DNA of 64,000 nucleotides, taken from the NCBI RefSeq assembly GCF_000024205.1, contig NC_013216.1:1736001-1800000 (forward strand), read 5' to 3'. The position numbers were made by a program, and so were the translations under genes. Shown here piece after piece: positions 8,249 through 48,758 of this stretch; position 1 is the stretch's first letter; each line of letters starts with the position of its first letter. Under the pieces are notes generated by a model, which saw nothing but the letters and a program-made list of their open reading frames with translations, was not told the DNA's origin and ran no database searches. The DNA comes from Desulfofarcimen acetoxidans DSM 771. Lineage in GTDB: Bacteria; Bacillota; Desulfotomaculia; Desulfotomaculales; Desulfofarciminaceae.

Positions 8249-8488
8249 TTATTTTAATTTGTTATGCTCTTGCCATTTTTTGGAACGGTATTTCATGTTA
8301 AAATCTTCCTCACTCATAGAAGAAAAAATCTGTGTGGCAAATTCTTCGGCTTCCTTTTCTTCAACATCACATTCTACACAGAAATCCAGCCATAGATCGC
8401 TGTTTTCATCAAATACATTATAATCAAACTCAATATATTCCTTGTCCTTCAGGCACCTGGCGCAACGAAAATCATCTACACATCTCAT
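8249..8488 (-). CDS. Small putative zinc-ribbon protein
   Basis: Acidic 79-residue protein. Two CxxC pairs, CARC at about residues 9-12 and CVEC at about 37-40, are spaced as in a small zinc ribbon. The C-terminal half is charged and helical. Start ATG follows GAGGG with nine bases between. I do not recognise a family, and a role cannot be assigned. It is transcribed against the phosphatase gene and away from the small TGA-split frame. Coding is supported by the ribosome site and by the regular Cys spacing. Confidence 0.65.
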   Translation of the reverse strand: MRCVDDFRCARCLKDKEYIEFDYNVFDENSDLWLDFCVECDVEEKEAEEFATQIFSSMSEEDFNMKYRSKKWQEHNKLK

Positions 8489-8648
8489 CTAGTTTATCCC
8501 TCTTTCCGCATATAATAATCTCTTTTATCTTTTTAAATAAAATAAAGCTTCAACAAAGATGCTGATTTTCCTGCCGGGCAATTTTAATATACATGGCATT
8601 CTATACTTATCTAATATATAATAAAGGAAAAAGCAAGGAGGAAAAAAT

Positions 8649-8861
8649 ATGGCAGGAGTTTTGTATAACCCGCAAAACGGCAAGGTTTATGCTATGGACT
8701 ACTTGAACTTGCCTTTGATTATAAACAAAAACTCATGAGCCTGCAGGGCCAAATTAGCCCAGGGTTGGGCTTTCTGCGAGGGTATTGCTCAGGAGGAGCT
8801 GATCAACAAAGACGGGGAATGGTATCTGCCTGAAGATAAAATGGAAAAGATACAACTATAA
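8649..8861 (+). pseudogene. Small gene split by in-frame TGA (codon 30)
   Basis: An excellent ribosome site AAGGAGG stands before ATG at 8649. The frame codes 29 residues beginning MAGVLYNPQNGKVYAMDYL, meets TGA at 8736-8738, then stays open for 40 more codons to TAA at 8859. The second part looks protein-like (LAQGWAFCEGIAQEEL, DGEWYLPEDKMEKIQL). The simplest reading is a nonsense mutation, for example CGA to TGA. A selenocysteine codon is possible because a hairpin AGCCC-AGGGTT-GGGCT lies 22 bases before its loop downstream of the TGA. I do not recognise the family. Confidence 0.6.
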
Positions 8862-9420: not shown

Positions 9421-9978
9421 CTAAAGGAACAATAATTCGGAAAGATATTTTGTATCACCAAAGTCTTTTAATAATTTAAATTCCTGTGCCTTATAGACAG
9501 TTTCAGTAATTACGATAAAATGCCTGCCGCCCAAGCTCTCAAAACTCTGAGGCGGGCTGCCTGTAATACGGGTACAGTGTTGGCGGATAAAAGTGCAGTT
9601 GGCCGCCGGGTACATAACCTCAATTTCTGTGGCAGCTTCATAATAGACAGCCATATATGGAGTAAACCGGCAGTAAAGTGGCCGTACGGTGTGTATCGCG
9701 CATTTAGTTGTTAAGCGAAAAGGGCATAAAATATTATCACTAAGATTTTTTTTAACCTGTTCAATATCCTCATGACATAGCTTGCTCAGATATTCAGCTA
9801 TTAATAGCCATTCCGCCTCATAAACGGGAATATCTACACCGACACAGCAGCAGCCCTTGTTCGTACAGGGAAAACACTTGTTCCAATAGTTATCCATCCG
9901 AACCAGCTGGTCTGCCAGTTGATCTATTAAAGCATAAAGCCTGTGAACCGCCACTATGATTTTTGACGGTACCTTCAT
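9421..9978 (-). CDS. YkgJ-type cysteine cluster protein
   Basis: Protein of 185 residues with the Cys pattern of the YkgJ (CxxCxxCC) family: CFPCTNKGCCCVGVDI at about residues 36-51, then CPFRLTTKCAIHTVRPLYCRF. The family is predicted to bind a metal or an iron-sulfur cluster; its biological role is not settled. ATG at 9978 is chosen because GAGGTG lies six bases upstream of it; a GTG three codons earlier would overlap that site. The gene is transcribed toward the YvlD-like gene and may share its message. Confidence 0.82.
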   Translation of the reverse strand: MKVPSKIIVAVHRLYALIDQLADQLVRMDNYWNKCFPCTNKGCCCVGVDIPVYEAEWLLIAEYLSKLCHEDIEQVKKNLSDNILCPFRLTTKCAIHTVRPLYCRFTPYMAVYYEAATEIEVMYPAANCTFIRQHCTRITGSPPQSFESLGGRHFIVITETVYKAQEFKLLKDFGDTKYLSELLFL

Positions 9979-10141
9979 ATTCCACACCTCAACTTTTCTC
10001 TGATTATATAAATCGTAAGCGCAATTTTCAAATTTAGTATAGGACTTTAAGGAGATCTGGATAAATAAATGAATTCTAGTATAAAGTTGGTAACTAATGA
10101 TAAGCTATTACTACAAAATATATCATAAAATATTATTTATT

Positions 10142-11937: not shown

Positions 11938-11956
11938 AGCTATAATTGAATAAACC

Positions 11957-12041
11957 TGCTGGGGGAGCTTTATGCTGAGAGGATTTGCTGTGTCCGACCC
12001 TTTGAACCTGTAGGGTTAATGCCTGCGTAGGGAAGCAACAG
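11957..12041 (+). promoter_or_regulatory. TPP riboswitch (thi box) 1
   Basis: The conserved TPP aptamer blocks are present in order: GGGGGAGC, GCTGAGAGG, GACCCTTTGAACCTG, GGGTTAATGCCTGCGTAGGGAAGC. A short closing stem CTG/CAG brackets it. It precedes thiD by about 200 bases and is followed by a terminator, so thiamine pyrophosphate should stop transcription of the thiD-thiM operon. Confidence 0.95.
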
Positions 12042-12064
12042 TCATACTTAAAAATTTGATGGCT

Positions 12065-31897: not shown

Positions 31898-31919
31898 TTA
31901 TCTTAATCATAAACTAAAT

Positions 31920-32009
31920 AGTTGGCTAGGGGTGCCGCGTGGCTGAGAGAGAGTGATCTCAACCCTCTGAACCTGATTTGGGTAATTCCATCGTAGGGAA
32001 GCTGGAACT
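31920..32009 (+). promoter_or_regulatory. TPP riboswitch (thi box) 2
   Basis: Conserved TPP aptamer blocks in order: GGGGTGCC, GGCTGAGAG, ACCCTCTGAACCTGAT, GGGTAATTCCATCGTAGGGA followed by AGC. It precedes thiS by about 220 bases and is followed by a terminator. Confidence 0.96.
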
Positions 32010-32044
32010 GTGTTGTAAGGTTGAACACGTTCTCATTAGTAACT

Positions 32045-33227: not shown

Positions 33228-34328
33228 GTGAGTTTTTACGGAGAACTCCAAAGGTATGAGAACTTTGATTTTGAACTCTTTTTTAAACAAGTTACTGACG
33301 CCGGGATTAAAAGAATTATAGCCCAGCACCGCCTTAATGAAAGAGATTACCTGGCGCTGCTGTCTCCCCGGGCGGAAAATTTTCTGGAGGAAATGGCTCA
33401 AAAAGCTCACCGCCTTACTGTTCAGCACTTTGGCAGGGTAATTTTCCTTTTTACTCCCATGTACCTGGCCAACTATTGTGTCAATCAGTGTGTGTACTGC
33501 GGGTTTCAGGTTCATAATAGGCTGGAAAGAAAGAAACTTTCTCCCGCCGAAGTGGAAAAGGAAGCTAAAATTATTGCAGCTACCGGTCTAAAGCATATAC
33601 TCATTCTTACCGGAGAGTCCAGGCAGGAATCCCCGGTTTCCTATATCAGAGATTGTGTCGAGGTGCTGAAAAAATATTTTACTTCTGTCAGCATAGAAAT
33701 TTATCCACTGGAAGAAGACGAGTATGCCGAGCTTATTGCTGCCGGGGTGGACGGTTTGACTATGTACCAGGAGGTATATAACGAGGAGGTTTATGCCGAA
33801 CTGCATCCGGGTGGGCCGAAACGAAATTACCGCTTCCGGTTGGATGCTCCGGAGCGGGCCTGCCGGGCAGGAGTGAGGACAGTTAATGTGGGCGCCTTAC
33901 TGGGACTGCATGACTGGCGAAGCGAGGCTTTTTTCACAGGTCTGCATGCTGATTATCTCCAGAAAAATTTTACGGATGTTGAGGTCAGCATATCGCCGCC
34001 GCGGATGCGCCCTCACCTGGGGGGCTTTCAACCCAGAGTTGAAGTGAGCGATCAAAACCTGGTGCAGTACCTACTGGCCTTCCGGCTCTTTATGCCGCGC
34101 GGCGGTATTACTGTTTCCACCAGAGAGAGGGCAGAATTGCGGGATCATCTTGTGCGGCTGGGCGCGACCAAAATGTCGGCCGGTTCTTGTACTGCTGTGG
34201 GTGGGCGGTCTGATCAGGAATCCACCGGCCAGTTTGAGATATCTGATGAGCGCAATGTGGTGGAGATGGCGGACATGCTTTACTCTGTTGGTTACCAGCC
34301 GGTCTATAAAGATTGGCAGTCGTTTTGA
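33228..34328 (+). CDS. thiH: 2-iminoacetate synthase ThiH
   Basis: Radical SAM enzyme of 366 residues that cleaves tyrosine to give dehydroglycine for ThiG. The cluster motif CVNQCVYC (CxxxCxxC) is at about residues 83-90, and [11 protein letters not shown] and [15 protein letters not shown] follow. GTG at 33228 has AAGGA eight bases upstream; ATG at 33219 would overlap that site. The oxygen-sensitive ThiH route, rather than glycine oxidase ThiO, agrees with an anaerobe. Confidence 0.94.
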
Positions 34329-47200: not shown

Positions 47201-48758
47201 AGCACAGGCGACCGGTTTGGAAAAAACTTTGGCTGGAGAAGTAAAAGGGCTCAAGTCGCTGGAAGATGATATTAAGAGCTGTCAGGAGCATATTAGAGAA
47301 TACGAAAAAATAATTCAAAATACTTACGGACTGCTTTTGCAAGAGGTCAGCCATGCCGATAGCTATATTTCAAATGAAGTGATCGGATTATTGGAAAACA
47401 GGCGGGAGTCATGTAAGGATATGCATCGTAGGATGCAAAAAGAGCAGGCAGGCATGAATGAGCAGCGGGCCGGAGCTGTTTCAAAAATGGAAATATATTG
47501 TGAGGAAGTGGCGGAAAAGTACGGACAGGAGCCATATACTCTGTTTTCTCATCCCGACAATGAGGAAGCGGTTTTGCGGCGGGATAAATTGCAGGTGCGG
47601 AATGAATTGCAGCTCCTGGGGGATTTGCTTGAAAAAAATAATAATGAGTTATCCTTGTTGAAAGACGCGAGAATCAGGTTGGATGAAAACATGAAGAGCA
47701 ACAGCATAATGCCGATTGATGATGGGCTGCCCCCGGAGGTTTGGCAGCAGGCCATGCAAAATGTCACGGATTTTGTTTCCCGGCAAACCCGCTTGTTAAA
47801 TAAGCTCAAAGATGAAGAGCAGAGCAAGAGCCGGGTGGTAGAGAAACAGTTCGAGATTTTTAAAAAGGTTTTGGAGGCCCGACACAACGGCATCGTGAAC
47901 AGTTTTGTTAAATCTTTGTTAGAGCAGGACAGGCATAAATATGATTTTGCGCTGGTAGAACCTGTTTTCAGTAAGTGTTTTGCCACTATCCTTAAGTATG
48001 AGGAGAGTTATAAACACAAGCTGAAGGAAATTGAGGAGGATAAAAAGGAACTGATCAGTCGCTGCATACAGCAGGCTTCCAGGGTGGCCGATGAAATAAA
48101 TTCTATCAAGAAGTTTTCCAAGTTTACTTTAAACGATCGGAATTTGCAGGCTATTGACATTAAGCTGAGATCTTGGGAGCAACAGGCTGCGCCGGTGGTG
48201 ACGGACAATTATATTAATCAGTGTATCATGATACTAAACGATATGAAAGATGAAGGTGCGGAGGAGCAAAAACTACAGGAATTTATTGAGCACAAAATGT
48301 CCTCCAAGGAATTGCTGAATGTTCTATCACCTCTTTCCGAGGCTATAGTCAGAGTTTTAAAACCGGAAAAGGATCATGCCTCCTCTCGCTATGATCGTTG
48401 GGAAGGTGTTTTTAAATGGTCGGGTGGTGAGCGTTACGCAGGCTTTTGTGCTATGTATATTGCTCTGATCTCTTACCTGCGCAGCAAGGCCAGTGCTATG
48501 TACAACCCGGCCAAAGTTTTGGTGGCGGATAATCCTTTCGGTGCCGCCTCTTCTCCCCATATCCTGGATATGGTTTTCCAATTGGCTGCGGCCAACCGGG
48601 TGCAGATGATTTGTCTTACCGCTCTGACTGATCAGAATATTTTTAAGTATTTTGATGTAGTCTACAGTTTGAAGCTGCGCAGTCTTGGGGGCAAAGAGTT
48701 TATTTCTGTCAACCGGATGGATACGGGGTACTATCGCAGTGGAGTGAATGAAGACTAA
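44277..48758 (+). CDS. jetC: Wadjet protein JetC (SMC-like ATPase)
   Basis: SMC-family ATPase of 1493 residues, the DNA-loop-extruding motor of Wadjet. The N-terminal head has Walker A LENGGGKSLM (about 36-45). Long coiled coils (about 270-560 and 790-1300) surround a hinge-like middle. The C-terminal head has the signature KWSGGERYAGF (about 1380) and Walker B-like KVLVADNPFGAAS (about 1415). In the last, Asn stands where most SMC proteins have the catalytic Glu. TTG at 44277 is chosen because AAGGAGGG lies six bases upstream and the fold begins there. A terminator overlaps the stop codon. Confidence 0.9.
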   Translation: MPQIERIRLTNVKYDNGKKEFVNDMFLPAGSNCAFILENGGGKSLMVQLLLQVVLPNESIGVRPASDLVSGSDRFTGHILVEWRLDDPESRYLLTGFCFTRGYEDERLFKYFMYTIQYDQIPNELDIENLPLLENRKVRSYQELLVMLRRLSGEGGRRLDVFQQDKGEKHKYVKHLETFNIYEREWRGIKTTNGDEGGMEGFFEKSKKTEQLMERLIIPGVDQVIFNRAGEEKELARAFTRHKDNLLSIPKLEKNIKDFSTIRGEGEKVLAAIKAYSDCILERSGQKEKVARLYCSVNNRKEEINALNAGLSADLEKQGKWLHELEYKLDSLPYIRVKLELQDLEKKFIALTESITLVEKEARQSAYEVNLAKGKNLWLKIAAEQAKIKAAQVEAENLTRSNRELMEQLLTCRYTWKTRLKERINRQMPGVKALREELLALKSETKEKEVKQKRLEESIEKSGKQSGMVEGWLKFYSEKEKTLLAGGYEEAWVKDPAYGKKAVSEIIQEIERAKDEIEDSIKKIVEELPPVEKEIEELKFRQASAANRMERINENRAVFNSQYEHIQDSLTRFSLDVGDIFANRADIETRLAQKVIEGQQAMLRVGAKKSNIQEKAELSGLEYYVPNRELLLVQEKLEEWGVFSETGSKWLDLAGISGRQRENYLKNNPLLPYSLIVARKDLANLSKLAEKWQKLALNNPVPLVVKSEAALSGGEVKDSALLPLMDNYVYLPWHGGYRYALSRQALEELRLSLGEQMEDAEQEISRLRQNSDLLAELEFKVREFYLSYPQDPTPVFESESNAVVAEMQKTASRLVYQEKRRIQKLEVKTVLEEDREKKGELLTQAKNHYKELENLYCQHEEKVSYLRQMEELAGQIQSLHTELADCRNRLNGLQTRITELTLRLDNESRILDEMERECEGLEVLEHDGWRQSHMITDKLLNMDGDNRRDSALPQVVAAVLPELRQALPLSYEEAKAQATGLEKTLAGEVKGLKSLEDDIKSCQEHIREYEKIIQNTYGLLLQEVSHADSYISNEVIGLLENRRESCKDMHRRMQKEQAGMNEQRAGAVSKMEIYCEEVAEKYGQEPYTLFSHPDNEEAVLRRDKLQVRNELQLLGDLLEKNNNELSLLKDARIRLDENMKSNSIMPIDDGLPPEVWQQAMQNVTDFVSRQTRLLNKLKDEEQSKSRVVEKQFEIFKKVLEARHNGIVNSFVKSLLEQDRHKYDFALVEPVFSKCFATILKYEESYKHKLKEIEEDKKELISRCIQQASRVADEINSIKKFSKFTLNDRNLQAIDIKLRSWEQQAAPVVTDNYINQCIMILNDMKDEGAEEQKLQEFIEHKMSSKELLNVLSPLSEAIVRVLKPEKDHASSRYDRWEGVFKWSGGERYAGFCAMYIALISYLRSKASAMYNPAKVLVADNPFGAASSPHILDMVFQLAAANRVQMICLTALTDQNIFKYFDVVYSLKLRSLGGKEFISVNRMDTGYYRSGVNED

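Follow-up and report, generated by a model that had tools for sequence, protein, structure and literature searches.

The closest described systems are the bacterial selenoproteins with an in-frame SECIS. For these, the parts of a recent compilation drawn on here give a hairpin model with a loop of 3–9 nt, a stem of 4–16 bp, a G in loop positions 1–2, a spacing of 16–37 nt, and an energy of at most −7.5 (PMC13188914). In the same portions of that source, the pairing of Cys and Sec homologs is one of the two main routes by which selenoproteins are found, and glycine reductase selenoprotein A (GrdA) is listed with a CxxU motif. GrdA was named as a family without known Cys homologs in a passage of PMC1794560, and Cys homologs of it were reported in 2025 (PMC12013277). 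According to the sections of the latter considered here, Cys homologs now seem to exist for all known selenoproteins, and the method used there may discard selenoproteins that lack them.

Here, we analyzed a 64-kb window, i.e., the whole stretch of DNA from base 1736001 to base 1800000 of the genome of Desulfotomaculum acetoxidans (newer name, Desulfofarcimen acetoxidans), which is assembled as one contig (4,545,624 bp). We consider positions 8649–8861 of this window to be a functional selenoprotein gene (probability of about 0.94), in which SelB, Sec-tRNA(UCA), and a hairpin would insert selenocysteine (Sec) at residue 30. For the group of related loci as a whole, the best reading is an undescribed small selenoprotein family with a predicted Sec position at the start of a helix and with no Cys homolog found among the genomes searched, which number at most 565 and belong to one phylum.

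A small gene with a conserved in-frame TGA

The locus comprises the following features (window coordinates):

8635–8641, + strand: Shine-Dalgarno sequence AAGGAGG, from the sequence
8649–8861, + strand: highly probable gene for a small selenoprotein of 70 residues (U at 30), ending in TAA, from the sequence and homologs
8736–8738, + strand: in-frame TGA, very probably read as Sec, from TGA in 16/16 homologous loci
8756–8771, + strand: bacterial SECIS-type hairpin AGCCC-AGGGTT-GGGCT, from the published model, folds, and covariation

The frame reported in the first-pass annotation, introduced by AAGGAGG and ATG, meeting TGA at codon 30, and running on to codon 70, is seen directly: the ATG lies at 8649, and the TGA is followed by 40 codons and a TAA at 8859–8861. 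Taken alone, the hairpin means little, since under a loose SECIS rule one follows 1170 of the 2112 TGAs on both strands of the 64-kb window. When an ATG frame of ≥20 codons was required upstream of the TGA and ≥30 open codons downstream of it, 41 TGAs were left, 14 of them with a hairpin and an energy ≤ −7.5, and 4 also with a Shine-Dalgarno tetramer. The other three survivors, at 33874 and 34045 (inside a 369-aa ORF) and at 48466 (inside a 1529-aa ORF), were rejected as lying in a different frame within longer ORFs. The observation at the small gene exceeds chance because all 16 homologous loci retain the TGA.

These loci come from 14 of the 113 genomes of the order of the window (in the collection searched, order and class are the same 113 genomes), with two loci each in the genome of the window (G000) and in G001. 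The second copy in the genome of the window, at C1:2258524, has diverged to 37% identity and carries one TGA, at the aligned codon. Across the 16 loci, no sense codon occurs at this position, and there are no internal stops other than the aligned TGA, the TAA or TAG seen in some rows being the terminal stop. Homologs with Cys, Arg, or Trp at codon 30, which the first-pass annotation had proposed to look for, were therefore not among them. The combination that it had named as speaking against Sec, i.e., homologs with Arg, Gln, or Trp and a genome without Sec genes, came out in reverse, with TGA at 16/16 loci and selA, selB, selC, and selD present.

Given the patchy presence of the gene (14/113 genomes), loss or transfer is likely. 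In a tree of the loci, the f16 loci and the f7 loci each formed a single group, as did either of the two f1 copies; the f5 loci did not form one group (2 changes), the two f1 copies did not group together, and the deep forks were not settled.

Distribution and searches for relatives

So far, the family is known only from the order of the window. In an even sample of 398 genomes across the phylum, searched with at most 14 first-look candidates scored per genome and hence at a sensitivity below that of the order search, 12 genomes had a match: three clear ones, all from the same order, and nine weak ones from outside it (E 2.6e-4 to 0.05). We took the latter as chance; the eight that were inspected (all but L049) show no family pattern and are stop-ridden frames or lie inside other ORFs. 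G033 (E 0.011) and G024 (E 0.051), from a 40-genome search in which 10 genomes matched, were likewise taken as chance, and neither matches in the order search. The classes of G113 (17 genomes) and G115 (82 genomes) gave no match and are weak negatives, as sets without any known holder. Profile searches covered one phylum, and other phyla were reached solely via short exact peptide patterns: a contig scan of this kind found no relatives with the single window protein, and a second one with A3 matched three named genomes that belong to the holders of the family, Desulfoscipio geothermicus DSM 3669, Desulfotruncus alcoholivorax DSM 16058, and Desulfotruncus arcticus DSM 17038. There was no match in plasmid and phage records, and the best value in PHROGs was 0.054. 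Overall, no Cys homolog was found in the sets of 113, 398, 17, and 82 genomes, which overlap and hold at most 565 distinct genomes of one phylum.

The family was also compared with published ones. None of the 119 families and subfamilies in Table 1 of PMC13188914 (2026), as far as the portion of the source used here extends, fits by name, motif, or Pfam/NCBIfam match (15/16 members); rows citing only cd or PTHR models were set apart by name and motif, and the libraries may not hold the model of every row. The family was not recognized in literature on these genera or on new and Sec-only selenoprotein families, mostly represented by titles and the opening lines of abstracts. Within these partial sources we recognized no published description of it, and a groundwater survey cited in PMC13188914 (reference 66) could contain the family.

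Among the alternatives, the one that best withstands these results, which we nonetheless regard as unlikely, is that the gene does encode a selenoprotein, but one with a distant link to a known family, or with Cys homologs, that the searches missed. Such relatives could have gone unseen in profile searches that covered one phylum, were partial outside the order, and scored at most 14 candidates per genome in the 398-genome search, and relationships are difficult to establish for proteins 70 residues long. Two weak similarities also point this way: a local match to ryanodine receptor 1 in the PDB (E 0.012, profile positions 35–51) and a weak match to a viral frame (L054) with a similar motif, which we take to be the motif of ryanodine-receptor repeats; both were kept as leads only. 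Against a missed family stand the Pfam and NCBIfam searches, with a best E of 0.086 for 15/16 members, the lack of a fold match, and the occurrence of a sense-codon version in 0 of the 113 genomes of the order. The stronger proposition, that the family exists in the Sec form alone, with no Cys version anywhere and a fold unmatched in the PDB, is tentative, and we would give it slightly less than even odds.

Selenocysteine machinery and the SECIS-type hairpin

The genome of the window holds all of selA, selB, selC, and selD, the genes whose presence the first-pass annotation had suggested checking. Scores were 605.2 bits for selA and 381.6 bits for selB; the tRNA-SeC has the anticodon tca, and selD is present twice (L075 and L076, at G000:C1:3270741 and G000:C1:897677), with one in-frame TGA in each copy, the TGA having been located for one of the two loci, in the stretch SGUAAK. 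The selA and selB genes lie at C1:1725863–1729160, ~15 kb before the small gene. SelB scored over the cut-off in 14/14 holder genomes and in 109/113 genomes of the order, so its co-occurrence with the family is permissive and not discriminating. In G000, G001, G036, G050, G051, G055, and G057, the family gene and selB share one contig, 11–62 kb apart; in the remaining 7/14 holders, whose assemblies are in many contigs, selB is on a different contig.

The window hairpin has the anatomy described in the first-pass annotation, i.e., a stem of AGCCC (8756–8760) and GGGCT (8767–8771) around the loop AGGGTT (8761–8766), the first loop base being the 23rd base past the TGA (22 bases intervene) and the second a G. 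The agreement with bacterial SECIS rules claimed there extends to every criterion of the model as given in the consulted parts of PMC13188914, and the 51 bases after the TGA fold at −18.2 kcal/mol. Folds of all 16 loci show a hairpin at the same spacing after the TGA, with a folded loop of 4 bases in 14 loci, 3 in G004, and 6 in G065. The stem is interrupted in G057, and for G001b the 51 bases fold at only −6.7 kcal/mol, which misses the model limit of −7.5.

We evaluated the helix as an 8-pair stem across the 16 rows. Standard pairs occupied 83.6% of the cells (shuffled mean 73.3), the covariation score was 0.296 (shuffled mean 0.096), and 11 cells were changed on both sides (shuffled mean 3.8), with 0/500 shuffles as high for any of the three, a significance that the shuffles overstate since the 16 sequences are related. 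The both-side changes are all confined to pairs 21–36 and 22–35, and the outer two pairs are broken in 7 and 9 of the 16 sequences. There was no excess over shuffles in the count of pairs changed on both sides (427/500 as high) or in the count of pair types (68/500 as high). On four of five measures, the six slid versions of the stem scored lower, and three of them tied with it in the count of pairs changed on both sides; RNAalifold recovers the same helix. An Ala or Ser codon in the 5′ arm is GCC or TCC at 16/16 loci, codons that make up a share of 0.14–0.56 of their sets in neighboring ORFs. The Ala/Ser-Gln-Gly-Trp stretch is also a protein motif, and conservation of the hairpin is partly protein constraint. 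Rfam at gathering thresholds gave no match at the hairpin site. In selD L075, a control from the same genome, the hairpin after the TGA is unlike that of the small gene, and likeness to a known hairpin therefore cannot validate the one in the window.

In the mechanism that we propose, SelB with Sec-tRNA(UCA) would bind the hairpin, its loop beginning 22 nt past the UGA, and selenocysteine would go in at residue 30 of the 70-residue protein. Judging from the anatomy of the gene, it is highly likely that the UGA and hairpin recruit SelB and Sec-tRNA. We infer the actual insertion of Sec, and its chemistry, from the observed conservation of the TGA, the hairpin, the selection on codons, and the Sec genes.

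Hairpins are able to stimulate readthrough, and the UGA might instead be read by a different route, with near-cognate insertion of Trp or Cys, or serve as a regulated stop that yields a 29-residue peptide, with a hairpin not linked to selenium. Sec genes occur in 109/113 genomes of the order and so are no proof for the small gene, and sequence alone cannot reveal the inserted residue. With a window hairpin that fits the SECIS model, complete Sec genes in the genome, and a codon that is never TGG, TGC, or TGT in the 16 loci, we consider such a route very improbable, and the insertion of selenocysteine remains our preferred reading.

Selection on codons

Summed over seven pairs of related loci (G055 being used twice, and some synonymous distances being saturated), pN/pS was 0.20 upstream of the TGA and 0.34 downstream, or 0.33 downstream when the first 11 codons past the TGA were left out. 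With these ratios, the segment downstream of the TGA behaves as translated protein. A pseudogene, i.e., an ordinary small gene hit by a nonsense mutation, had been the preferred reading of the first-pass annotation, and a small frame lacking familiar redox motifs favors it a priori. It is extremely unlikely given a TGA at 16/16 loci, among them the paired copies of two genomes, purifying selection downstream of the TGA, and the absence of a sense-codon version from the genomes searched. The selenocysteine/SECIS reading of the same annotation is instead borne out by TGA conservation, hairpin covariation, selection after the TGA, and the full Sec gene set.

Gene neighborhood

No gene context was common to the holder loci across families. 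Heterodisulfide-reductase-like genes, identified by sequence reading, lie upstream in the six f16 loci and were set aside as shared synteny of close relatives. Of the 14 holders, G001, G005, and G030 alone encode a PF03692 (CxxCxxCC) protein within 3 kb of the family gene, a proximity that was noticed post hoc among genomes carrying 3–8 copies each and is weak as a signal. In the window, a 79-aa Cys-rich protein (8249–8488, − strand) is divergent from the selenoprotein gene, and a close homolog occupies the same place in G001. A downstream protein with CxxCxxxxCCC (9421–9987, − strand) resembles one near the G001 gene and is not among the PF03692 matches. The second copy of the small gene (L002 1187–1692; L020) sits after a 91-aa small protein and before a helicase-like gene, an order also seen in G001. 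Elsewhere, the window contains two TPP riboswitches (11951–12050 and 31918–32016, + strand).

Protein features and possible function

In alignment A2 (15/16 members), G3, V4, L5, P22, Sec, G39, W40, L51, and W58 are invariant. The Cys two residues after the Sec, to which the first-pass annotation had drawn attention, is present in the window protein; as an obligatory partner it does not hold up, the position being Cys in only 11/16 loci, His in 2, and Val, Ser, or Ala in one each. There is no conserved second Cys, and no CxxU or UxxC motif of the kind seen in thioredoxin-fold oxidoreductases is conserved.

With Cys substituted for Sec and an input of four sequences, AlphaFold2 gave a mean pLDDT of 86.9 for the window protein and 88.5 for L042. 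In both models, a short helix lies between beta strands and has the Sec position as its first residue; the fold as predicted is a small beta structure with this single helix. Foldseek against the PDB returned no match with E ≤ 0.001 for either model, and realignment of 141 chains to the first model (the window protein) gave none with Z ≥ 2; we do not claim a new fold, since a small fold can be missed.

The start of a helix stabilizes a selenolate, and that of the Sec would be stabilized in this predicted position. The Cys at Sec+2 is unconserved, no Cys variant was found, and the Sec is modeled at a helix start. On these grounds, Sec would most likely act as a nucleophile on its own, taking part in a redox reaction with one selenol or binding a metal or metalloid. 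Between these roles, a redox step completed by a partner protein is our first choice, at about even odds, and a role of the Sec as metal or metalloid ligand is possible but somewhat unlikely.

Comparison with known selenoproteins

A Sec-only family, if true, would contradict the statement on Cys homologs in the part of PMC12013277 cited above, and would suggest a hidden set of selenoproteins invisible to discovery through Cys/Sec pairs. It would also imply chemistry beyond sulfur, for which this small protein would be a tractable system in which to ask why sulfur cannot replace selenium. Among described families, GrdA has no Pfam/NCBIfam match in common with the new family. TsoX, a recently described selenoprotein with the unusual motif HSGNPxU (Table 1 of PMC13188914, in the portion considered), recalls the member in G005, which has HSGNP before its Sec. 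G005 and TsoX share no NCBIfam match in the release used, which may not contain a TsoX model, and the Sec of G005 lies 8 residues past the Pro, compared to 2 in TsoX. Overall, the new family differs from known in-frame-SECIS bacterial selenoproteins in having no Pfam/NCBIfam domain, no conserved UxxC or CxxU, and no Cys homolog, whereas it has in common with those described in the consulted parts of PMC13188914 the in-frame TGA, the hairpin spacing, and selA, selB, selC, and selD.
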